A DNA stretch of 32,227 nt from a virus. The stretch spans positions 1-32,227 of IMG/VR virus record IMGVR_UViG_3300031963_000594; one strand, given 5' to 3'. Both the position numbers and the translations under genes were made by a program. Under the pieces are notes generated by a model, which did not search any database, had not been told where the DNA came from, and saw only the letters and a list, made by a program, of their open reading frames with translations. Positions 11,499 through 30,240 of the stretch are shown here, piece after piece (position 1 is the stretch's first letter; each line of letters opens with the position of its first letter).

Positions 11499-13373
11499 CT
11501 ACACGAACTGCGGTTGCGCGCCGCTGTCCAAGAGTTGTTTCAGCAGGGACACCATCCGGTCCGAATTGGCGGCAATCCGCTCATTGGCATTCACGAGGTC
11601 ATCGGCGCCCCGGCCGCCCACGGCCGCTGCGGCCGCCTTCGGCACGGCCATGCCGTTTTGGAGCGCCTGCACCGGGGGAAGTGCCGGAGCCAGCCGCTCC
11701 AGGTTGTCCGCCATCCGCCGGGTGTTTTCGGCCGTCTCCTCGATCGGATTCAGTGCCGGACCGATGCCAAACTGGCCGGCGACCTGGCCCGTGAGCGTCG
11801 CCAGTGCCTCGCCACGCTTGCGTGCGAGGACGGGATCGCCCGGCTGCGCCATCGGATCGCCGGCCTTGTCTCGCTCCAGACCGTTGGGCTTGCCTTGCTC
11901 AACGCCGGCAGCGCCTTTCTTCTTGTTGCCGCCAAACATCCACCACGCGCCAGCGGCGAGCAACCCGCCGCCAATCAGCAGGCCCAAGGCAACCGCGGGG
12001 TTCTTGATTGCCCGGAGCGCCAACGCAGCTTTTGCGAGCCCCCAGGTTGCAGTCGTGATGGCTTGAATCGCCTTTACGATGCCCTTGCCGGAGCCGAGGA
12101 TGAACTTGAATCCTCCCGTCACTCCGTAGAGGGCCGCGCTGGCAAGCAGGGTTGCCGTTCCAAACAAGAACATTCCGGCCGCCACGCCGGCAATCAGCTT
12201 TGACAGCAGCGGGCAGGCTTCCATGACCCGCCGCAGCCCGTCCGCGAGCGCCACGATCTGCGGCCCCAGCCAGCCCAGCGTTTCCGAGAGCGAGGTGCCG
12301 AACCCAATCGCGAGCATCTGGCCGGCCGACGACAATGCCCGCATGAATCCAGTGATGCCGGACATGACGATTCCGAACTTCTCGGCGACCGTTCGCGAGC
12401 GTTCCATCTGGTTTGCAATGTCGGCGAACCCTTTTTCGCCGATGTCCGCGAACGCCGTAATCACCTTGAGCCCGCGAACGTCAAACACCTTGACAAGCGC
12501 CTCGTCGGCCAGAATGGCGTCGCGAGCGCTCTTGCTCATCTTGCCAAGAACACGCTCGAACACGCCGGCAATCTGCGGGATGGGAAGCAGTTTTCCAGTG
12601 ACCTTGTCGCGGAACGACTCCACCGACAGGCCCATTCTTGCGAGCGCCTCTTTGGCGTCGTCCGCAGGAGCCACCAGTTTCGCGAGCATCGTCTTGATCG
12701 CGGTGCCGGCTTCCTCGCCCATGATGCCAGCGCGGGCCATGGCCGCCATCGCCTGCGAAATACCGAACAGGCTTTGCCCGAACTTGTCGCCGGACGCACC
12801 GACCTGGCTGAACGCTTCGACCATCTGCGCGATGTTCGTTTCGGAGCTGTCCGCCGCAGCCGAGAGCGTATCGACCGCTTCCTTGGCCGACACGCCGAAC
12901 ACGTTCATTGCGACCTTCATGAACGTCGCGGCCTGCTCGGCCTCGACGCCCGACACGGTGGCGAACTGCACGGCCGCCTCGGCCGCACCGCCAAGCGCGT
13001 CCTCCACCGACATGCCCGCCTTGACCAACAGCGTGATCGACCGGGCGGCATCCGTAGCCGAAATGCCCATCTCGCGGCTCATGCGCAGGGCGGCCTCGCG
13101 GGCCGCCTCGAACTGCTTGGGCGATATGTCGATGGCACTCGCCTTCAACTCCAATAGCGCGTCCTCGAACGTCGCGGCGGCCCTGGCGGCAGCGACGAGC
13201 GGTGCCCCCATCGCGACGCCGCCGAGCGTGGCGACCGTGCCGATCTTCCGCAGCGATGCCGCCATCATGGCCGTGCGGTTGTGCACCCGCCTCATCGCGG
13301 CCACGAATTTCGTGTCGTCCGCGGAAATTTCCACGAACGTCAAACCGGCACGGACTGCGGCGGCACTGCTCAT
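11499..13373 (-). CDS. Tail tape-measure protein (TP901 type)
   Basis: This encodes 624 residues from ATG 13373, overlapping the stop of the T-frame (ATGA). Residues 65-330 match the TP901 tape-measure core: FEDALLELKASA, AREAALRMSREMGISATDAA, TLLVKAGMSVEDALGG, VSGVEAEQAATFMKVAMNVF and SSETNIAQMVEAFSQVGA. Two hydrophobic regions follow (around residues 385-420 and 455-485, for example LIGGGLLAAGAWWMFGG), as expected for proteins that insert into the host membrane during DNA ejection. Length sets tail length; at roughly 0.15 nm per residue this predicts a tail near 90-95 nm. No peptidoglycan hydrolase domain is seen. Confidence 0.88.
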   Translation of the reverse strand: MSSAAAVRAGLTFVEISADDTKFVAAMRRVHNRTAMMAASLRKIGTVATLGGVAMGAPLVAAARAAATFEDALLELKASAIDISPKQFEAAREAALRMSREMGISATDAARSITLLVKAGMSVEDALGGAAEAAVQFATVSGVEAEQAATFMKVAMNVFGVSAKEAVDTLSAAADSSETNIAQMVEAFSQVGASGDKFGQSLFGISQAMAAMARAGIMGEEAGTAIKTMLAKLVAPADDAKEALARMGLSVESFRDKVTGKLLPIPQIAGVFERVLGKMSKSARDAILADEALVKVFDVRGLKVITAFADIGEKGFADIANQMERSRTVAEKFGIVMSGITGFMRALSSAGQMLAIGFGTSLSETLGWLGPQIVALADGLRRVMEACPLLSKLIAGVAAGMFLFGTATLLASAALYGVTGGFKFILGSGKGIVKAIQAITTATWGLAKAALALRAIKNPAVALGLLIGGGLLAAGAWWMFGGNKKKGAAGVEQGKPNGLERDKAGDPMAQPGDPVLARKRGEALATLTGQVAGQFGIGPALNPIEETAENTRRMADNLERLAPALPPVQALQNGMAVPKAAAAAVGGRGADDLVNANERIAANSDRMVSLLKQLLDSGAQPQFV

Positions 13374-13776
13374 AGTATTTCCTGCAGTTGTTGGTCCGTG
13401 ATTTCAGGGACCGTAACCGCGGCCCTCATCGGGTGGATTTCATCGGCCGTGTACGGCCGGCTGCGCTGCTTCGGGTCACGGTGAACTTCCGCGATCTGCG
13501 CGACGATCGCGCAGGTGTGATTCCAGCGTTCCCGCTGCCAGCCGCGGACGGCAAAGTAGAGCTCGCGAAGGGACCACTGCCCGGGGTGGACGCCGAGGAT
13601 TCCGGCGAGCTCCCAGGCGTACTCCCAAACGTCAGTGACGAGATCGCCGCGTCTATTTCCCGCTCGACCGCCGGCATCTGCCTCGCCAGCTCCTTCTCCG
13701 CCGCCGCTTCCGCCTTCTTCATCCGATCCAGCATCAGTTCGAGGATCGCTCTCACGCGGGGGCGGCAAAAAAAAAC
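13370..13776 (-). CDS. Tail assembly chaperone, T-like C-terminal part, reached by -1 frameshift
   Basis: This frame has no start codon of its own near its conserved region, which runs from about 13645 to its stop at 13370: DVWEYAWELAGILGVHPGQW, SLRELYFAVRGWQRERWNHT and the HRDPKQRSRPYTADEIHP tail. The pattern WxHTxxxxAxIAxxHRDPK is one I know from the second tail chaperone of similar phages. It lies in the -1 frame relative to the upstream G-like gene, and a run of nine T (minus strand) at 13775-13767 offers a TTTTTTT slip site. The stop overlaps the tape-measure ATG. The left boundary given is the slip site, not a start codon. Confidence 0.65.
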
Positions 13777-14058
13777 CATCTCCTCCAGCAGAGCGATATG
13801 CGCCGCGGCCAGAGTTTCGCCATTGAGCCCAGCAAAGAAGTCGTCGGCCGTCATACCACGCTGGGTCGCCTGCGGCTCGACCACGGCCCACAGCACTTCC
13901 ACCAGCGTGTACGGGTCCGTCAGCCGCTCGATGCTCTTGCGTTCCTCGGTGGCGATGTCGGTCAGATCGACGCCGCTGGCTGACTTGACGCGAGCCCACG
14001 CAAGCATGTTGCCGGCGATGTCCCACGTCCTTCCGGCAGTGTCCTTGAAGCTACGCAT
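13426..14058 (-). CDS. Tail assembly chaperone, G-like protein
   Basis: This encodes 210 residues from ATG 14058, just upstream of the tape measure, where siphophages keep the G/GT pair. The N-terminus (FKDTAGRTWDIAGN) is typical, followed by TDPYTLVEVLWAVVEPQATQ, TADDFFAGLNGETLAAAHI and a charged helix (ILELMLDRMKKAEAAAEKEL). After about residue 140 the sequence becomes Ser-, Pro- and Thr-rich, because there the other frame (T) is the conserved one. The unshifted product therefore has a low-complexity tail of about 70 residues. The start overlaps the previous gene by 8 bp. Confidence 0.7.
   Translation of the reverse strand: MRSFKDTAGRTWDIAGNMLAWARVKSASGVDLTDIATEERKSIERLTDPYTLVEVLWAVVEPQATQRGMTADDFFAGLNGETLAAAHIALLEEMVFFCRPRVRAILELMLDRMKKAEAAAEKELARQMPAVEREIDAAISSLTFGSTPGSSPESSASTPGSGPFASSTLPSAAGSGNAGITPARSSRRSRKFTVTRSSAAGRTRPMKSTR
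13768..13774 (-). promoter_or_regulatory. Candidate -1 ribosomal frameshift site (T TTT TTT)
   Basis: On the minus strand nine T follow ATGG. In the G-like frame they read GTT TTT TTT TGC, so a T TTT TTT heptamer sits in the X XXY YYZ phase needed for a -1 slip into the T-like frame. It is the only canonical slippery heptamer I find in the overlap in the correct phase. The frame-0 coding quality persists about 125 bp beyond it, which is unusual. Confidence 0.55.
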
Positions 14059-14458
14059 TGTTGGCGTTGGTGACCTGTTTTAGAAGGAACCGCGCTCGCA
14101 CCGGGCCGTTGAGCGGCTCGTCTGCGTCAAGCTCGTGAATGATGAAATCCCACTTCTGGCCGTCGAGCACGCCGTGATAAAACGCAACCTCCACTACCCG
14201 CGGCAGCCAATATCCTCCGACCGCCTGCGACATGCGATCGCGCATGAATGCGATCACCTTGTAGTCCGGCGTTGTGAAAGAGACTTCCAGGCTGCGGTGC
14301 GTGACGACCGAAGACGAGATAGACACGCCGAACTTTGTCGCGTCGATCTCTCGCTGCACGACACGGACAGTGGCATCCTCGATGCCGACCATGAGGTTGC
14401 CGTCGATAGTTAGGGCGCAGTTGCGGCCAAGGCGAAATTCCTGTCCGAGCCGCGCCAC
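14051..14458 (-). CDS. Tail protein
   Basis: This encodes 135 residues from GTG 14458, preceded by GAGGTGAGCA (GAGG at 6 bases). The sequence is beta-rich and ends in a conserved-looking WDFIIHELDADEPLNGPVRA segment, with RFLLKQVTNANN at the C-terminus. It lies between another tail protein and the tail chaperone, the usual place for the major tail tube protein or a tail-terminator partner. Its first half (GRNCALTIDGNLMVGIEDAT) has the short-strand pattern of tail tube proteins. I cannot tell which of this and the next gene upstream forms the tube. Confidence 0.65.
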   Translation of the reverse strand: MARLGQEFRLGRNCALTIDGNLMVGIEDATVRVVQREIDATKFGVSISSSVVTHRSLEVSFTTPDYKVIAFMRDRMSQAVGGYWLPRVVEVAFYHGVLDGQKWDFIIHELDADEPLNGPVRARFLLKQVTNANNA

Positions 14459-16128: not shown

Positions 16129-17184
16129 TCACCATGGTTTCGGGCCGGGCTCTGCTACCATTCTCGCCAATCGCGCGGCGTTCTTCGTCAGACGATCGTC
16201 GTCCGGGCTGCGCTTGGCCGCCTCGGCGGCATGCCTCGCGGCTTCCTCAAACCTCCCCAACTTCCAAGCCGCGGACGCGGCCAGATCGGCCGCGGCGGAA
16301 CCGTAGGCCCGCGGGTCGCTGGTGTGGGTCTGGTTGTTCTGGTGGCAAGCCATCGCCTGCCGGGCGTAGTAGAGGGCCGCCACGGCGTCCTCCATGCCCC
16401 AGGCCCGCTCCGCGATCGTCAGGTACGCCTCCGGCTCGCAAGGGCTCTGGATGATCGCCTCCAGGAGCCGCCGGGTGCCCTTGTCCGCCTGCCGGCGTGC
16501 CAGCACGCGGTAGGCATAGGCTCGCTCGTGCGGCGTCCCTCCTGCCAGCGTCAGGTATCGCTCGAATGCCGGCACGGCCTCGTCGGAATTGCCGTAGTCG
16601 AGCTCCCGGGCCAGATACCACTGCATGCGGGCGTCCAACGGGTTTTCGCGGACCGCTTGGCGGAGCAGCGTCAGGTCGGTGCCGTGGGATTTTCCAGGCT
16701 GCCGGTGATGGCGAATTACCAGCCGTTCCGAGTACGCCTCAACGTCGTCCCCACTCCAGCGGACCAGCCCCTCGTGGGTCGCCCCGGTCCAGCGGTAGCC
16801 GCCCCGGGAGTGAATCCGGTCGCAGAGAAACCGGACCGACTCCGACCAGTGATACCAGTAGCGGAGCTTGGTCGTGTACGGCTTCCAATCGGCCTCTAGG
16901 GCTTCCCGCCACCCCGGGTCGAGCTGTTCATCCAGGTCGAGGCGGATGCACACGTCCACGTCGGCCGGAACGTGCATCAGCGACAGGTTGTGGGCGTCGT
17001 CCCATCGCCACGGCTGCGGGGAGCCGCTCACAACGGTCACGCCAGCCGCCGCGAGCATTTCCTGCGTGCCGTCGGTCGATCCTGTGTCTGTCACGACCCG
17101 CGCGTCGGCGTCGCGGCACGACGCCTCCCAGGCGGCCACGTTGGCGGCCTCGTTCCGGGCCAGAGCGTAGACAGCCACCCTCAT
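16129..17184 (-). CDS. Family 2 glycosyltransferase with TPR-like C-terminal region
   Basis: This encodes 351 residues. Residues 1-90 show the GT-A fold markers: VYALARNEAANV, DTGSTDGTQEML (nucleotide binding), and LDLDEQLDPGW, where the Asp-x-Asp/Glu group binds the metal and sugar nucleotide. The His-rich RWTGATHEGLV follows. From about residue 190 the sequence becomes helical repeats (DARMQWYLARELDYGNSDEA, VPAFERYLTLAGG, SAAADLAASAAWKLGRFEEA) resembling TPRs, a common partner-binding add-on in this glycosyltransferase group. It overlaps the methyltransferase gene by ATGA. The acceptor may be a phage virion protein or a host glycan; sequence alone does not say. Confidence 0.8.
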   Translation of the reverse strand: MRVAVYALARNEAANVAAWEASCRDADARVVTDTGSTDGTQEMLAAAGVTVVSGSPQPWRWDDAHNLSLMHVPADVDVCIRLDLDEQLDPGWREALEADWKPYTTKLRYWYHWSESVRFLCDRIHSRGGYRWTGATHEGLVRWSGDDVEAYSERLVIRHHRQPGKSHGTDLTLLRQAVRENPLDARMQWYLARELDYGNSDEAVPAFERYLTLAGGTPHERAYAYRVLARRQADKGTRRLLEAIIQSPCEPEAYLTIAERAWGMEDAVAALYYARQAMACHQNNQTHTSDPRAYGSAAADLAASAAWKLGRFEEAARHAAEAAKRSPDDDRLTKNAARLARMVAEPGPKPW

Positions 17185-18827: not shown

Positions 18828-19223
18828 CTAGAGCCCCGCGGCCTCCCGAAACGCGGTGTCGAGGGTCGAGGCGTCGAGGCCGAGGGACGGCCCGAGGGCC
18901 GCCAGCCACGGGCTTCCCCGATAGACTTCGGTCCCATACTCCCACTCGACGCGGACGCTCTCGCGGGTGATCGCGTCGGGGATTGAGTTGACCGCCGCGT
19001 CGACGCTTGTCAGGCTGACGCCGTGCCGGACCAGCCAGAGGCGGGCTTGCCGGGCGGAGATCGTCGGCGGGACAGGGTCGGCATCCTCGGCGAGCTGCCA
19101 GCCGGGCGGCAGTTCGTCGGCCGGAACGGCCGTGCATCCGTCGGGCGGCGCCCAGCCGTCGGGTAAATCCGCCCGGACGAACGTCTGGACGAAGCCGCGC
19201 GTGTCTACGATTGCGATGTCCAT
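18828..19223 (-). CDS. Tail fibre assembly chaperone-like protein
   Basis: This encodes 131 residues from ATG 19223, sharing bases with the stop of the fibre gene. It starts with DIAIVDTRGFVQTFVRADLP, carries a short WAPPDGCTAVPADELPPGW region, then a helical C-terminal domain: ISARQARLWLVRHGVSLTSV, VNSIPDAITRESVRVEWEYG, and SPWLAALGPSLGLDASTLDT. The C-terminal pattern (ISxRQxRLxL, IPDxxxRExxxxExE, ALGxxLGL) is common in proteins encoded next to tail fibres that help them fold or attach. Its place immediately after the collagen-like fibre gene fits this role. Confidence 0.65.
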   Translation of the reverse strand: MDIAIVDTRGFVQTFVRADLPDGWAPPDGCTAVPADELPPGWQLAEDADPVPPTISARQARLWLVRHGVSLTSVDAAVNSIPDAITRESVRVEWEYGTEVYRGSPWLAALGPSLGLDASTLDTAFREAAGL

Positions 19224-20875
19224 CAGAAATACACCACGATTCGGACCATTCCGTTCGCTCCGTTGCCGCCGGCGCCGCTGGCGTAGCCGTTGAACGCGGC
19301 CCCGCCGCCTCCACCACCGCCGCCTGGGAATCCGCCGTTGCCGCCGTTGCCGCCGGCCGTCGTGGCGTTTCCGGCTCCACCGCCACCGCCACCGCTGCCG
19401 CCCGCGGAAAATACGTTGTTCGCGGTTGCGCTGGTTGCGTTTCCGCCCGGCGCCGTGCCGCCCTGCCCCCAGCCGATCCCGCCGCCCGACCCGGCAGCGG
19501 CCCATTGTTGCGAAGTCCCAGGCGCGCCGTTCCGACTGTTGTTGCTGGAGTCGATGCCGCCACCGGGACCGCCTGGACCGCCGCCGCGGAGATACATCCC
19601 CTGCCCGGAGCCGTTAGCCGTGACGCTGCCAGCCACGGCGCCGACCGAAGCCCCTGTTCCTGCGGGCTGGTTGAATCCTCCTGCGCCAGCCGCAGCCGTC
19701 CCACCGCTGCCGCCGCCGTTGTTCACTCCAAGCACCAGCAGCGGCGCCGCGCCACTGGAGAGGGCCACAGAGGACGATCCGCCGTTTGTCCCGGCGTTGC
19801 CGTTCGTGTCGTCGGTCCCCTGCGCCGCCCCGCCTCCGCCCCCGGCGCCGACCGTGATGGTGAGCGTGGTCGAGGGCATTTCCGCGACGGCCAGCATGGC
19901 CTCGCCGAGCGCGCCGCCGACGCCAGCGCCGCCGCCGAACCGCGCGGAGGCCGCGGCCCCTCGGCGGCCCGAACCGCCGCCGGCACCGCCAGCGATGGCG
20001 ATCATGTAGACGGCCTTCGCCCCGGCCGGAATCGTCCAGGTGTACGGGCCGGGTGTTGCCCCGGTCGCGTCGGCTGGCGCCGCCGTTCGCGTGAAGTCAA
20101 AGACCGCGGAGATCGGGGCGTAGGTCTGGTCGCCGCGGAGGTACGTCGAGGCCGAAGCCGTCCCGCTCCCGAGCCGCGCCGTCGCGATCGTGCCGCTGGT
20201 CAACAGACTTGCGTCTGTGGTGGCTGGCCCGGTTGGTCCGGTCACCGTTGATGCGGCGCCCGTCGGCCCGGTCACCGTTGATGCCGCGCCGGTCGGCCCG
20301 GTGATCGCCAGCAGGTCAATGGTCGCCGCCCCCCAAGAGCCGCCGGCCTTCGGCCCATAGAAGTCAGCCCCGAGGGTGTCGATGTACCAATCGCCATCCA
20401 CGCCAGCGTTCGCCAGCGGGACGCCGGCCCCGGCGATCAACGTCGCGCCGCGAACCCCGGACGGGCCCGTGCTGCCAGTCACACCGGTCGGGCCAGTGGC
20501 CCCGTTGCTGCCGTTGCTGCCGTTGGTTCCGGCAGCCCCCGTCGGCCCCGTGGCCCCCTGCTGGCCGGCCGTGAGGAGCACACCGCCGCCCCACGCTCCG
20601 TTCGCCTTTGGCCCATAGAGCCGGCCGGCGTTTGTGTCGAGGAAGAAGTCGCCGCTGTTGCCGAAACCGGACACAGGCCCGGTCGTGCCGGACCAGAACT
20701 TTGCCCCGTCAAACCCGCGCGGCCCGGTGGCTCCGGTCTGACCCATGCCAGGAAGCCAAGCCGAGCCGTCCCACGTCAGCAGCGAGCCTGTCGCCGGCGC
20801 GGTCGCGCTGACGCCGCGGCCCTGAAGCTGGGTGGCGTTGCCGGATGTCGGGGATGAAATCAAAAAGAATGGCAT
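19223..20875 (-). CDS. Collagen-like tail fibre protein with Gly-rich C-terminal domain
   Basis: This encodes 550 residues from ATG 20875. It starts [19 protein letters not shown], as the second fibre gene does. Two collagen-like stretches of Gly-X-Y (GPT, GAT, GSN triplets; for example [20 protein letters not shown]) are separated by two GDF/GDWYIDT-YGPK-G-WG modules. Residues 250-330 look like a globular adhesin, and the last 200 residues are Gly-rich with many GGG segments and few charges, like Gly-rich C-terminal domains of phage adhesins. It probably forms a trimeric fibre or spike that contacts the host surface. The following gene may be its chaperone. Confidence 0.82.
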   Translation of the reverse strand: MPFFLISSPTSGNATQLQGRGVSATAPATGSLLTWDGSAWLPGMGQTGATGPRGFDGAKFWSGTTGPVSGFGNSGDFFLDTNAGRLYGPKANGAWGGGVLLTAGQQGATGPTGAAGTNGSNGSNGATGPTGVTGSTGPSGVRGATLIAGAGVPLANAGVDGDWYIDTLGADFYGPKAGGSWGAATIDLLAITGPTGAASTVTGPTGAASTVTGPTGPATTDASLLTSGTIATARLGSGTASASTYLRGDQTYAPISAVFDFTRTAAPADATGATPGPYTWTIPAGAKAVYMIAIAGGAGGGSGRRGAAASARFGGGAGVGGALGEAMLAVAEMPSTTLTITVGAGGGGGAAQGTDDTNGNAGTNGGSSSVALSSGAAPLLVLGVNNGGGSGGTAAAGAGGFNQPAGTGASVGAVAGSVTANGSGQGMYLRGGGPGGPGGGIDSSNNSRNGAPGTSQQWAAAGSGGGIGWGQGGTAPGGNATSATANNVFSAGGSGGGGGGAGNATTAGGNGGNGGFPGGGGGGGGAAFNGYASGAGGNGANGMVRIVVYF

Positions 20876-20876
20876 G

Positions 20877-21305
20877 TCAGGTCATCCAAAAGGTGGCTCG
20901 CACCTTGTCCAGCGTGGACGTGTCTCCTCCGGCGCGGCTGAATCGGAACTGAATGAGCTCCCCTGCATTGAACGTGCCAGCGGAGCCAGACTGCGAATCC
21001 GTTCCGCTCATGCTGGCGAACGCGCTCCACAAGGTTTCGTTCTCCAACAGCCAGTTCAGCACGCCGTAATTCCAGTATTGTCGCGACCATGTTTCGAGCG
21101 TGTAGTTGAGCGTCCCGCCAACCAATGCCCGCAAAATCACTTCCGGATATGACTGAGTGTTTTGGTTGTTTCCGTAGATCGTGATATCGAACGGCGCCGC
21201 GGCTGTGCCGTGCCCGAACCGCTCGACGGTCGCCGACTCCAAATACCTGTCTTCCCGCCAATCTATCAGCGACGCCGGCCTCACGCTGCCGCATCGACCG
21301 ATCAT
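20877..21305 (-). CDS. Hypothetical protein between two fibre genes
   Basis: This encodes 142 residues from ATG 21305, which overlaps the previous stop (ATGA). It is beta-rich: [39 protein letters not shown], then [20 protein letters not shown] and a final [20 protein letters not shown]. The aromatic content and short strands suggest a virion protein such as a fibre hinge, adaptor or receptor-binding domain. The placement between two copies of a collagen-like gene suggests it could be part of the same fibre assembly. I recognise no family. Confidence 0.6.
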
Positions 21306-22231
21306 TGCTTCAAGTCTCCCATCAGAAGCCATTCGTCTGGGCGAATGAGCACCGCCGTTGCCGTTGAGTTCACGGCCCGCAACTTCTGGCCCGGAGTTGC
21401 CAAAACCGTAACGCCGTTGGCGCCAGTAATCAGCACGTCGTTCGTTCCGATTCGTGCCACGTCGATATGCACGCCGGTCGCGTAGGCCACAGTCCCCGCA
21501 GCCGGGATCGTGGCACGGAGCGTCGAAAAACCGTTGCTAGTGAACACCACCATCTTGCCGGCGTCGCCGAGCACAAGGTTGTAGCTGCTGGATTGCAGGC
21601 TGATCCCCTGGCCGTCGCCCCACGAGCCTGCCAAGCCTGCGACGCCCGTTGGCCCCGTCGGGCCGCCGTTTGGGCCTGTTGGGCCCGTGACGGTCGAGGA
21701 TGCACCAGTCGGACCTGTGCTGCCAGTTGGACCCGTGACAGTGGATGCCGCGCCGGTACTGCCCGTTGGGCCGGTACTGCCCGTTGGCCCCGCGACGGTC
21801 GATACTGGCCCGGTGCTGCCCGTCGGGCCGGTGCTGCCCGTGACTCCGGTTGGTCCGGTGACGACCGAGGCCGATCCGGTGCTTCCGGTGGCCCCAGTGA
21901 CGCCCGTCGGCCCTGTAGGTCCGCCAGCGATTGAGGAGCCGGCCCCCCAAGAGCCGTTTGCCTTGGGCCCGTAGAGCACGCTCGACGCGGTATCGACGTA
22001 GAAGTCGCCGGACCGGCCGATGCCGTTGCTCGGCGCGCCGGAGCCTGAAAACGTCGTCGCCCCGTCCATGCCGGCCGCACCCGTTGGTCCGGTCACGCCC
22101 TGCGACGCCAGCCAGGTCGAGCCGGAGTAGGTCAGGACGGCTCCGGTCGCCGGCGCCGTGGCGCTGACCGGGCGGCCCTGCAGTTGGGTTGCGTTGCCGC
22201 TCGACGGCGATGAAATGAGGAAGAACGGCAT
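21302..22231 (-). CDS. Second collagen-like tail fibre protein
   Basis: This encodes 309 residues from ATG 22231 with GGAG 8 bases upstream. The first about 35 residues repeat those of the neighbouring fibre ([20 protein letters not shown], then VSATAPATG). One [18 protein letters not shown] module is followed by about 100 residues of Gly-X-Y repeats rich in GPT, GST and GSTGPTG. The C-terminal domain ([55 protein letters not shown]) is a beta-rich head reminiscent of phage fibre tips. It is likely the shorter of two collagen-like fibres, and possibly a receptor-binding protein. Confidence 0.82.
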
Positions 22232-23078: not shown

Positions 23079-24914
23079 TCAGGCGGTCGCCATCCGGTAT
23101 GCCGCACGGCTTTCAGCCTTGGCGACGCCGAAGGAGAAGTGCCCGCGGACCTGGATGCCGAGCATGTTGAAGTCGGCCTCGGCCTGCTCAACCGTCGGAA
23201 CCCGGACGCCGTTCAGGAACGCCACCTCCATCGCCGGCAGTTCGGCGGGGTTGGCGACGAGCCACCACGTCGAGGAGCTGGAGAGGTAGGACGAGCTGAC
23301 CACCCGGTAGCGGCCCGCCAGCACGTTGACGTTCGTGCGGGTGGCGTTCTCCCCGGTGATAAGCAGCGAACCGCTCATCAGCTCGGCAGCGGTGATCTCC
23401 AGTTCGGGCGGCACCAGCAGGATCGACGGGGCGATCCCGAGCGGGTTGCCGTCCGGGTCGGTGATCTTCCGGTAGGCCGAGGCCGCAGTCCGGAGCGAGC
23501 CGATCGCCAGCGCGTTCCCGGCAGCGGCCGAAGCCGCCTGGTAGAACGTGCTGTTGCTCGCCTCGAACGCCGCCCAAAAGCTCTTGTTGAGCCTCGTGGC
23601 GGCACCCCGTCCCAGCCGGGCCGGAACCGCGGTGATCGCTCCGAGATCGTCGTTCACGATGTCAACCATCGTGATGGACGACATGCGGCCGTAGAGGTCC
23701 GCCTTGATCGTCCGCGTCTCGTCGCTCGCGTCCGCGCTCTTGAGCTCGCCGGCCGGGCTCACCTGCTCGAACTCGAACCCGCCGTTGAGCCGCACCCCGG
23801 TGACGGTCTTGTAGTCCGACACCGACCGGATGCTGGCGATCTGCTCGTAGTTCATCTCCACGGCCGTGTAGCCCTGGAGAAGAAACTTGCCATAGGTCGC
23901 CGCCAGCACGTTGCTGATGGAGTGGGTCGCGAACGAGCTGGCAAGCACCTCGCGGATGTTGCCGGCCGTGACACGCGCCGGGCCGTGGTAGCCGTTGGAG
24001 CGGGCAGCCTCGACCAGAACCTCCTGCAGCCCGATGGTCCGGGACCGCTTGTGGGCGGCCTCCAGCGTCCGGGAGTCGAAGGTCTTCTCGACGCCGCCGA
24101 GCCCGCCAGCCAGGCAGAGAGCGGCTTGCACCACCTCCGGCCCTTCGGCCCTTTCCACGACGTGCACAGCCGGCGCGGCGGGGCGGCTGGCACGGATCGC
24201 GGCGAGATTGTCCGCCTTGATCCGCTCCACCACCTTCGCGGCGATGCTGTCCACGTCGATCAGGCTCGCACCGTCTCCGCCCTTGGCAGCGACGATGGGC
24301 TCGACCTTGTTCTCCGCGGCGACGTTCGCCGGGGCTTCCGTCGTCGGCACGGCGGCCTCGACGGGCTTCTGGTTGAGCTCATCGCTCATGGGGTTGCCCT
24401 CATTCGCCTCGGCGGCGATCGCCGCGGACGTGTTTCCGTCCGCACCAAACAGCACAACGCTCGTCTCCCGGAGGTCCGACCCCCGGACGACAGACACAGG
24501 ACCGGCAAACTCGCGACCGTTGACGCTCACGACCGCACCGGAATTGACGTTCTCGATCGACGCCGCATCGGCGCCGATGCTCGCCTGGAGAGGCACGCCG
24601 GCCTTGGCGAGAGCGATCACACGTTCCGCGACCGGGCCGCTGCCAAGCAGTTCTCCGCGGAGAATGAGCTGCGAACCGTCGTTGACGATCTCCGTGGACC
24701 GCCCGATGACGCCGTCGAGGCTGCGGTCGTGCGACCACAGGATCGGAATTGACGCCTTGGCCGTGTTCATGCCGGCGAGGTCAACGACCAGCGGGTTGCG
24801 GCTCCAGCCCTGCCTGATGGAAGCGCCGGTGTAGGCGACGAGCTCGAACGTCGGCGTCCGCCCCTCGGCCGCCTCGATCCGTATGTCGGTGGACAGGGTG
24901 ATGCGATTGCTCAT
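23079..24914 (-). CDS. Prohead protease fused to major capsid protein
   Basis: This encodes 611 residues. Residues 1-165 look like an S78-type prohead protease: VAYTGASIRQGWS, ILWSHDRSLDGVIG with the catalytic His, VPLQASIGADAASI with the catalytic Ser, and DLRETSVVLFGAD. Residues 176-240 are a charged, Ala- and Glu-rich linker, which would serve as scaffold (delta domain). From about residue 270 an HK97-fold capsid domain follows, with SNVLAATYGKFLLQGY, FEFEQVSPAGELKSAD and the end ADFNMLGIQVRGHFSFGVAK. An internal ATG (24389, residue 176) has GAGGG 7 bases upstream, so a capsid-only product may also be made. Assembly should need cleavage in the linker. Confidence 0.82.
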   Translation of the reverse strand: MSNRITLSTDIRIEAAEGRTPTFELVAYTGASIRQGWSRNPLVVDLAGMNTAKASIPILWSHDRSLDGVIGRSTEIVNDGSQLILRGELLGSGPVAERVIALAKAGVPLQASIGADAASIENVNSGAVVSVNGREFAGPVSVVRGSDLRETSVVLFGADGNTSAAIAAEANEGNPMSDELNQKPVEAAVPTTEAPANVAAENKVEPIVAAKGGDGASLIDVDSIAAKVVERIKADNLAAIRASRPAAPAVHVVERAEGPEVVQAALCLAGGLGGVEKTFDSRTLEAAHKRSRTIGLQEVLVEAARSNGYHGPARVTAGNIREVLASSFATHSISNVLAATYGKFLLQGYTAVEMNYEQIASIRSVSDYKTVTGVRLNGGFEFEQVSPAGELKSADASDETRTIKADLYGRMSSITMVDIVNDDLGAITAVPARLGRGAATRLNKSFWAAFEASNSTFYQAASAAAGNALAIGSLRTAASAYRKITDPDGNPLGIAPSILLVPPELEITAAELMSGSLLITGENATRTNVNVLAGRYRVVSSSYLSSSSTWWLVANPAELPAMEVAFLNGVRVPTVEQAEADFNMLGIQVRGHFSFGVAKAESRAAYRMATA

Positions 24915-27689: not shown

Positions 27690-29786
27690 TCACCACCGTC
27701 TCTGCGCCTTCGCCATGACCGCCGCCCTGGCCTTCGCCATCTCCTCTCGCGTCACGACCCGAGCCGGCGCAATGGGCCGGCCCTCTACCCCGATTGCCGA
27801 AACCCCCCGGTATGACGCCGCCACGGCTGCACCGACAACGCAATCGAGCAGATGGTTGTCGCGTCCAGGAGTCAGCCGCCACTCGTCGCATTCTCGCGCC
27901 TTGCTCGCGACACGCACCGGCACTTCCGACGAGAGTTGCTCGGCGAGCATCGTGTGGTCGCCGGAGTGGATCGTGAACCCGTTGGGGTCTGCAATCGGCA
28001 TCTTGATCCGCGACGAGATGAACGTCTTCCACGCGTTCGTGTCGAACAGGACGTGCCGTTGTTTGCCGATCGTGCTAGTGCGCCAGTTCGGCCCAACCCG
28101 CTCGCCCTTGTCCGGTGCCTTGTCGGAAAGCGTCTGGCCGCTGGCGCCCACGAACCGGCCGTGCGTCGGCAGGATTCGCGGCCCCCACCGGGACCGCCTG
28201 GCGAAGTCTCGAACGACGCCCTGCGTCTGTGCCCAGTTAGCGTCCACGAACATCTGATCGCACCGGAGAACGGCGTCGTCCGATTCGCGGGCAAACTCGC
28301 GGTCCAGAAGCATCGCGGCCACGGCCTCCAGCCCAGCGTGAATCGCCGCCTCGACGTTGTCGCCGTGGGCTCGGCCGAGCGTTTTCTTCGCATCCCGCAG
28401 GCTGAAATATGCGCGGCCCTGATCCGGGTAGGCACCGTATGCAACCAGGTGGCCGCGGAAGCCGTGCCCCCAGCCCACGACGGCCCAGTAGAGCAAATCC
28501 TTTTGCACGTCCACGCTCGCCGTCAACGAGTCGATGCCGCGAGGCACGATCCATCGCGGCACTTCAATCGCCCGGGCACGCACGTCGTCGGCCTTGAGCC
28601 CGGCCGATTCGGCCGCGTCCTTGAGCGGCTGTTGCTGGAACTCACTGGCGAACACGTCGGCGCCGTCGTCAATCAGCGCGTTGTACGCATGCTGTATGGC
28701 CGACACTTCTCGCTCCGGGTCGTAGCAGCTTGCCCACGACACGAGGCAGCCCGCGTCCATCGCCTCGCGGTTCTCGCCGTAGAACGCGTTGGCCTCCGCA
28801 TGGGCGCGCTTCTGGTCGCCGACAACGTCCCTGGCGAATGACGTGCGGATTTCGCGGTAGCGGTCCATCCAGAGGTCTTCGTGGCGGTCCGCGAACTTTC
28901 GCACCATCGGTATCCGCTCGCCCTGCCACCCCGGATGCCGGCCGGCGTCGAGGAGCTGATCCACCATGTCGTCGGGCGCAATCACCGTGGCGTTCACGAC
29001 GCACGCCATGCTCGTCGTGTGCCCGGACAGCTTGAGAACGCTCTTGAGGAGGATTTCGAGCCGAGCCTGGCACTGGACCGGCGAGCGTGCGCTTTCCCGC
29101 GTCTGCGGGTCGTCCACGATCACGAAGTCCGGCCGGAGTTGCCGGCCGTCGGCGGCCTTGTGCCGCAGGCCGAGGATCGAGCCCGTCAGGCCGCGGCTGG
29201 TGATGATCGCCCCGCTTGAGAGCGAGCCGGCAATGGTCGGAAACACGACCGTATCCTGCGTCCACTGGATATGCGTGCGATTGCCCTGGTGCGTCTGGCT
29301 CGCGCACCGCTGCGGCTTGCCCTCAAGCGCACGGATCGCGTGGCACACTTCGGGAAAGTCGGCGTAGAGCAGATCGTTGTCGGAGAGCTCTGTCTTCGCC
29401 GACATGATCGCCTTGGTGGCGAGCCCGGCTTCCGCCGCGAAGATCGCCCCAAACTTCCTGTGCCCGTAGAGCACGGCCCACAAGAGAGCGTTTTCCGAAA
29501 TGGTGGATTTCGCAAACCCTCGATACACCGCGTTGGTGAAGCGTCCGCCCGCCAGCACGCAGTCCTGGATACGTCCGATCACACGCTCATGGTCTTCGGA
29601 GAATGGCGACAAGCCGGTGGAGTATGGGAAATACTCCACGAGGAACGACCGCAGGCTGTTCCGGCATCGCTCCCGCCTGGCAGGATCAACAACCGATGGT
29701 ATTTCGCCAATGTCGGACCCGCGGCGAGTTCGCTCGCGGCTCCGCTCAAGGTCTTGTATCCGCTTGCGTTCAGCCGCCGATTCCAT
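27690..29786 (-). CDS. Terminase large subunit
   Basis: This encodes 698 residues from ATG 29786, overlapping the RuvC-like gene by 17 bp. The ATPase part has RGFAKST (residues 89-95) as the Walker A element after NAVYRG, and FVIVDDPQ (221-228) as Walker B with adjacent acids. The C-terminal nuclease part has LTASVDVQKDLLYWAVVG, RCDQMFVDANWAQTQG and RDNHLLDCVVGAAVAAS, with the acidic residues expected in RNase H-fold terminases of the GpA type. It cuts and pumps DNA into the prohead. No separate small terminase subunit is recognised nearby. Confidence 0.85.
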   Translation of the reverse strand: MESAAERKRIQDLERSRERTRRGSDIGEIPSVVDPARRERCRNSLRSFLVEYFPYSTGLSPFSEDHERVIGRIQDCVLAGGRFTNAVYRGFAKSTISENALLWAVLYGHRKFGAIFAAEAGLATKAIMSAKTELSDNDLLYADFPEVCHAIRALEGKPQRCASQTHQGNRTHIQWTQDTVVFPTIAGSLSSGAIITSRGLTGSILGLRHKAADGRQLRPDFVIVDDPQTRESARSPVQCQARLEILLKSVLKLSGHTTSMACVVNATVIAPDDMVDQLLDAGRHPGWQGERIPMVRKFADRHEDLWMDRYREIRTSFARDVVGDQKRAHAEANAFYGENREAMDAGCLVSWASCYDPEREVSAIQHAYNALIDDGADVFASEFQQQPLKDAAESAGLKADDVRARAIEVPRWIVPRGIDSLTASVDVQKDLLYWAVVGWGHGFRGHLVAYGAYPDQGRAYFSLRDAKKTLGRAHGDNVEAAIHAGLEAVAAMLLDREFARESDDAVLRCDQMFVDANWAQTQGVVRDFARRSRWGPRILPTHGRFVGASGQTLSDKAPDKGERVGPNWRTSTIGKQRHVLFDTNAWKTFISSRIKMPIADPNGFTIHSGDHTMLAEQLSSEVPVRVASKARECDEWRLTPGRDNHLLDCVVGAAVAASYRGVSAIGVEGRPIAPARVVTREEMAKARAAVMAKAQRRW

Positions 29787-30240
29787 TTCGTACCCACCAG
29801 TGACACAGAAGCGCGGCGTCCGCACGGCCGTCGTCTTTGACGCGGGAAAACAGGTGGGCCGACGACGGCCACAGCCTCCCGGCGGCGAGCCGGTGGCTGC
29901 CCTTGTCTCGGCTTACGCCAAGAGCCTTCGTCCAGACCTGTGGCCGGACGAGCGTTGTCGGGACGCCGAGGCCGGCAAGCACACCCTCTAGCAACCCGAA
30001 GCCGCGGCCGAAAGAGAACGCCGAGGTTGCTCCGGCTTGCTGGACGCCTTGAACGTGCTCAAGGACCGCCATGTGGATCGTGCCGGCCGCGCGGATCATG
30101 GCGACAACTGCCGCAGGGTCGATCGTCTTCCGGCCTCGCACGTCCGCCACCGGCATGTCGCCGACGAGCGTGACGCAATCGCCTCGCAGCAGCATCGCAG
30201 CACCGCTGATGCCGGGGTCGATTCCAAGGATGGCCTGCAT
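29770..30240 (-). CDS. RuvC-like Holliday junction resolvase
   Basis: This encodes 156 residues. It starts with LGIDPGISGAAMLLRGD, the first acidic motif of RuvC, followed by MAVLEHVQGVQQAGATS with the conserved Glu (LEHVQ) and Gly-rich loop, GRGFGLLEGVLAGLGV, and the C-terminal DDGRADAALLCHWWV with two acidic residues. All are RuvC-fold hallmarks; the length is slightly short of cellular RuvC. Phages use such enzymes to trim branched replication intermediates before packaging, which fits its overlap with terminase. The upstream gap carries palindromes. Confidence 0.82.
   Translation of the reverse strand: MQAILGIDPGISGAAMLLRGDCVTLVGDMPVADVRGRKTIDPAAVVAMIRAAGTIHMAVLEHVQGVQQAGATSAFSFGRGFGLLEGVLAGLGVPTTLVRPQVWTKALGVSRDKGSHRLAAGRLWPSSAHLFSRVKDDGRADAALLCHWWVRNGIGG

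Follow-up and report, generated by a model that had tools for sequence, protein, structure and literature searches.

A phage tail assembly chaperone gene with a probable programmed -1 slip at a T run, unusually far upstream of the zero-frame stop

The present study analysed a virus record of 32,227 bases, hereafter the window, in which genes for portal, capsid-protease, terminase and tape-measure proteins are present, and the features described here lie on its minus strand. The tail tape-measure protein is encoded at 11499..13373 (phrog_28, E 1.6e-45; Pfam PhageMin_Tail, E 3e-36). Directly upstream of this gene lies a G/T gene pair, comprising a G-like tail assembly chaperone ORF of 210 aa in the zero frame (13426..14058; alignment of 45 relatives) and a T-like domain in the -1 frame (13373..13633), which was aligned in 14 diverse relatives and has predicted helices from 13630. 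Consistent with the initial annotation, the stop of the T frame (TGA, 13372-13370) overlaps the tape-measure start (ATG, 13373-13371), and the G-like frame is open down to its stop at 13428-13426; the -1 frame itself is open from 14050 to the TGA. The same annotation had noted a T TTT TTT heptamer in the right phase, and a T9 run (13767-13775) indeed holds the slippery heptamer T_TTT_TTT (13768..13774), which consists of the third base of V95 followed by F96 and F97 and is the sole perfect in-phase heptamer upstream of the T domain in the window. Residues 1-97 (13768..14058), common to G and the predicted fusion, carry a codon-position signal and are predicted to be globular. Between the slip and the T domain, the segment at 13630..13767 would be decoded twice, as a helix of G in frame 0 and as an acidic linker of about 46 residues in frame -1. 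Where G overlaps the T domain, its zero-frame tail (13426..13629) is open, with low predicted order. Immediately upstream of G, a 135-aa protein (14051..14458) is a tail-tube candidate only by its position in the gene order, with no match in PHROGs and a sub-threshold match in Pfam. Elsewhere in the window, a beta-1,4-glycosyltransferase-like gene lies among the structural genes (16129-17184; phrog_13126, E 6.6e-72), two tail-fibre-like proteins match collagen-like minor tail families (19223-20875 and 21302-22231), a head protease is fused to the major head protein (23079-24914; phrog_4523), and the terminase large subunit (27690-29825) is matched over its separate halves by two families.

Relatives were collected from viral and genome contigs. 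Protein searches of viral contigs returned one relative for G, eight for T and three for the tape measure, a search with the T alignment yielded 431 relatives from which 80 loci were kept, and genome contigs gave four relatives, whose titles name Planctomycetota in two cases and Lentisphaeraceae in one. The T domain was also observed in 27 of 294 genomes sampled from the phylum of the genome that carries locus L016, a titled Planctomycetota MAG, and the phage of the window may infect a Planctomycetota host. Six T-domain matches on separate contigs of genome G224, including locus L103, possibly represent several prophages. A T match is present in 86 loci (85 and the window), and 80 of them carry the heptamer in the searched interval. 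From these 80 loci, 47 clusters, each with a representative locus and not fully independent of one another, were derived; 45 of the representatives entered the G alignment and 43 the PHROG search over T. In addition, a genome set of 26 loci was used, leaving out two weak hits (L118 and L119) and L091-L094, which come from the same genomes as L014-L017; here the site was located by a motif search per locus that did not presuppose the heptamer. Substitutions were analysed in 15 hand-picked pairs of related loci.

A T_TTT_TTY heptamer in G phase was observed 102-192 nt upstream of the T match in 80/86 loci, window included, and thus an X_XXY_YYZ heptamer of the kind expected for programmed -1 ribosomal frameshifting is conserved in the zero-frame phase. 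All close relatives have a run of exactly T9, with one T on either side of the heptamer, and distant relatives have T6C (T_TTT_TTC) at the equivalent place and in the same codon phase; among the 47 clusters, the site is of the T9 type in 20 and of the T6 type in 27. T9GCC is invariant across 19 relatives, whose alignment has a mean column identity of 72%. Runs of at least nine T occur 20 times in the 816,290 nt (both strands) of the 47 representative loci, in every case at the slip site, and the window has no other such run on either strand. The codons of the site would rarely be expected from the codon usage elsewhere in these genes (log10 P -34.1 and -33.5, calculated from pooled usage and, like the log P values of the openness test described below, taking no account of phylogeny). 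A -1 Pro codon follows the slip in 46 of the 47 clusters. In the genome set, T_TTT_TTC is present in 19/26 loci, and in 26/26 a T is the last base of the codon preceding the first Phe; because this T is never missing, T_TTY is the core of the putative slip site.

The full heptamer is absent from seven of the 26 genome loci, and from four of the six loci outside the 80, with TCT TTC TGC at the site in L014, L056 and L057 and GAT TTC TTC in L070; of the other two, the contig of L076 begins downstream of the slip site. The sixth, L058 (4740-5020), is closely related to L052; it retains the heptamer, 254 nt upstream, but a 74-nt insertion just before T, which is not a multiple of three, breaks the -1 path to T, and this locus is either a decayed copy or an assembly fault. 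Altered sites (A_AAT_TTT, T_TTT_TCC, T_TTT_ACC, T_TTC_TTC and T_TTC_TGC) were seen in L100, L106 and L120 and in L105, L110, L099 and L104, where the -1 frame is still open to T despite the changed site. The altered-site genome loci suggest that the P-site tRNA may slip alone.

Judged by these comparisons, ribosomal slippage would be the likeliest mechanism, because tandem slippage accounts for both types of site and for their fixed phase. The U_UUU_UUU heptamer is far less prone to frameshifting than A_AAA_AAG in E. coli (PMC5009743). Stimulatory RNA structures downstream of the slip are frequent at such sites without being universal. In searches of pseudoknot-free structures, no conserved one was found by RNAalifold (0 pairs on 19 T9 relatives), the folding z scores after the site (-0.37 and -0.39) did not differ from that of an upstream control (-0.45), and the excess of Shine-Dalgarno-like sequence is weak (31/47 clusters compared with 24.0 expected). 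Alternatively, RNA polymerase might slip at the T9 run in the close group, producing mRNAs with one additional U that are read into the -1 frame, while the distant T6 group would depend on the ribosome. Transcription in bacteria slips efficiently at runs of nine A or T (PMC5009743), and the constancy of T9 in every close relative, flanking T on either side of the heptamer included, speaks for this explanation. However, the run of at least nine A or T found in the close group is missing from the distant relatives, which have a mere T6 in the same codon phase, and the constant phase is the one required for tandem slippage by the ribosome, although it could also result from the encoded amino acids. 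We consider this alternative rather unlikely.

The codon-level comparison in the 15 pairs revealed which frame is constrained in each part of the gene. Upstream of the slip, frame-0 differences at the three codon positions were 0.18/0.13/0.47. Between the slip and T they were 0.22/0.21/0.38, and frame 0 is under purifying selection there (NN/SN 0.41, 0.32-0.53), whereas past the T start they changed to 0.08/0.36/0.14, purifying selection on frame 0 was not detected in these pairs (NN/SN 0.86, 0.60-1.21), and the T frame is constrained (NN/NS 0.20). At the T start, residue constraint thus leaves frame 0 and passes to the T frame. The initial annotation had described frame 0 as coding-like for about 125 bp past the heptamer, in agreement with the signal of about 140 nt obtained herein and with a helix predicted at 13761-13627. 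For the -1 linker, residue-level constraint was not detected between the slip and T in the same 15 pairs (1.22, 0.97-1.60). Its composition nevertheless deviates from that expected from frame 0, with more acidic residues (0.181 compared with 0.137), more Gly (0.245 compared with 0.218) and fewer bulky residues (0.047 compared with 0.076), and these trends are absent upstream of the slip. The proposal of a Gly/Glu-rich linker read from dual-coding DNA therefore holds for composition and for dual decoding, but selection on residues is seen in frame 0 only. At the level of sequence, the dual segment is held in frame 0 by its residues and in frame -1 by openness and composition only, and past 13630 the T frame alone appears constrained.

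For the openness test, codons were shuffled among synonyms to obtain the expected number of open frames. All 47 clusters have an open -1 frame between the site and the T domain, compared with 17.7 expected, whereas the third frame is open in 4/47 compared with 10.7 expected; in an upstream control segment of equal length, the -1 frame is open in 12/47 clusters, close to the 12.9 expected. Similar results were obtained with the genome set, in which the -1 frame is open in 26/26 loci (11.8 expected), the third frame in 5 (5.0 expected) and the -1 frame of the upstream segment in 9/25 (7.7 expected). Because the segment from site to T is open throughout both sets and the upstream control is at expectation, the apparent requirement for an open -1 frame starts at the T run. 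The last -1 stop of several loci is found 0-12 nt before the heptamer. The G stop falls between -23 and +238 nt relative to the start of the T match; in the T6-type loci (L048-L090 and L091-L117) it is often located about 55-64 nt past that start, a narrow band despite the lack of residue constraint on frame 0 in this region. Taken together, comparison among relatives shows where a slip would lie, which segment would be decoded twice and which frame is constrained where.

These results also bear on the remaining explanations. A slip further downstream, near the T domain, would make the T run incidental, and this alternative, raised in the initial annotation, might be supported by the persistence of frame 0 as the constrained frame to about 13630 and by C_CCG_GGC at 13585-13579, which fits the heptamer pattern. 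However, an open -1 frame would not be expected from the T run onward in every cluster, C_CCG_GGC lies within the T domain and occurs in the window alone, and no other heptamer is common to the relatives; we regard a downstream slip as very improbable. Independent translation of T, from a start codon of its own in frame -1, is equally hard to sustain. The window has such codons, namely TTG 13768, created by the T run itself and preceded by GAGG-like bases, and GTG 13891, 13999 and 14026, and TTG follows the heptamer in 18 of the 20 T9 clusters; the earlier remark that the T-like domain has no start of its own thus does not hold to the letter for the -1 frame of the window. On the other hand, 19 of the 47 clusters have no ATG, GTG or TTG in the -1 frame between the last stop and the T core. 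Finally, long homopolymers are error-prone, but a sequencing or assembly indel splitting one gene into two, suggested earlier for a position near 13645, is scarcely credible because 80/86 loci, located on separate contigs, share the arrangement, as do relatives that lack a long run.

The structural predictions agree with the position at which residue constraint changes frame. G and the -1 product after the slip were modelled separately with AlphaFold2. In G, a globular part (pLDDT 94-98) is followed by a long helix of 45 residues (residues 100-144, 13761-13627, pLDDT about 96) and, after residue 144, by a region of low order (pLDDT 53-69). In the -1 product, about 45 disordered residues are followed by helices from residue 47 (13630). 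The frame-0 helix ends where the T fold begins, and therefore the predicted slip probably swaps the helix of G for a tether and T. Pfam and PHROGs gave no assignment for the G or T proteins of the window, and in the PHROG search over T, phrog_34388, of no function, was matched in 8 of 43 members. Searches of named phages with G and T of the window, and with T of L067, found no match. Searches of solved structures by sequence returned nothing for T and, for G, no more than dynein light chain rows at chance level; a PDB fold search with G gave nothing below E 1, and the best Z in VIA was 4.6. In viral models, the best named fold match was a tail assembly chaperone, although weak (E 0.083, probability 0.90), and the matches of T were also weak.

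Herein, we propose that a G-like chaperone gene with a programmed -1 slip at the T run yields either G or a G-linker-T fusion, which we consider the probable reading of these data; that slippage occurs, that the ribosome is the slipping machine and that the products act in assembly are what we infer from sequence comparison, models and analogy. First, most translation would stay in frame 0 and produce G, in which the globular domain is followed by the 45-residue helix and then by a disordered tail. Second, a minority of events would slip back one base at the T run, most likely through tandem slippage of tRNA-Phe on U_UUU_UUU, or on U_UUU_UUC in distant relatives. The resulting fusion would keep the globular domain, have about 46 residues of flexible acidic linker in place of the helix and carry the T-like helical domain at its end. 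Third, the DNA between the slip and T would be translated in two frames, one specifying the residues of a helix and the other being merely open and hydrophilic. If the roles resemble those in lambda, G may form a coat on the tape-measure protein, and the T domain may recruit the tail-tube protein. A more elaborate reading, in which the C-terminus is a built-in switch between a functional rigid helix found in G only and a tether for T, and in which slippage of RNA polymerase at T9 has, within this family, taken over from that of the ribosome at T6C in the lineage of the window, is in our opinion doubtful.

The present study adds a broad family of phage chaperones, some linked to Planctomycetota and without a Pfam or PHROGs assignment here, to the genes considered frameshifted. 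The slip lies far upstream of the zero-frame stop, and tools favouring slips near the stop would tend to miss such genes. The dual-decoded segment might also be regarded as a clean natural case in which residues constrain one frame, and openness and composition the other. Moreover, two questions become testable, namely the role in tail-length control of the rigid helix that is found in G and absent from GT, and the exchange of ribosomal for transcriptional slippage between homologous genes.

Among the closest known systems is the programmed -1 frameshift of lambda gpG/gpGT, together with the set reported by Xu, Hendrix and Duda (2004). As in lambda, the pair described herein lies just upstream of the tape measure, the second domain lacks its own start and is read in the -1 frame, a slippery heptamer is present, and a minor fusion product is expected. 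A literature search, with most subscription papers outside its reach, found no description of this chaperone arrangement. In lambda, the slip occurs near the 3' end of g (PMC5009743), and published means put the slip 26 and 36 nt from the stop (PMC10885494). In contrast, this distance is 339 nt in the window and 138-372 nt, with a median of 216, in the 47 clusters. Furthermore, unlike in lambda, the fusion would lose a G helix predicted to be structured. Between the two systems, no sequence relation was detectable. In a GeneTack cluster of frameshifted tail assembly chaperones, 6% and 7% frameshifting was measured for two genes; these phage chaperone genes were likewise predicted as frameshifted, but the cluster resembles a phage HK97 protein, and the survey had two Planctomycetes genomes only (PMC3711429). 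Thermus thermophilus dnaX, in which transcriptional slippage takes place at a run of nine (PMC5009743), shares nine T-type bases in a coding region and two products, which are predicted in the present case, but it is a different gene, and the distant relatives here hold T6C in a fixed ribosomal phase. Thus, as judged from sequence, the system of the window follows the logic of lambda-like G/GT with an unusually early slip.
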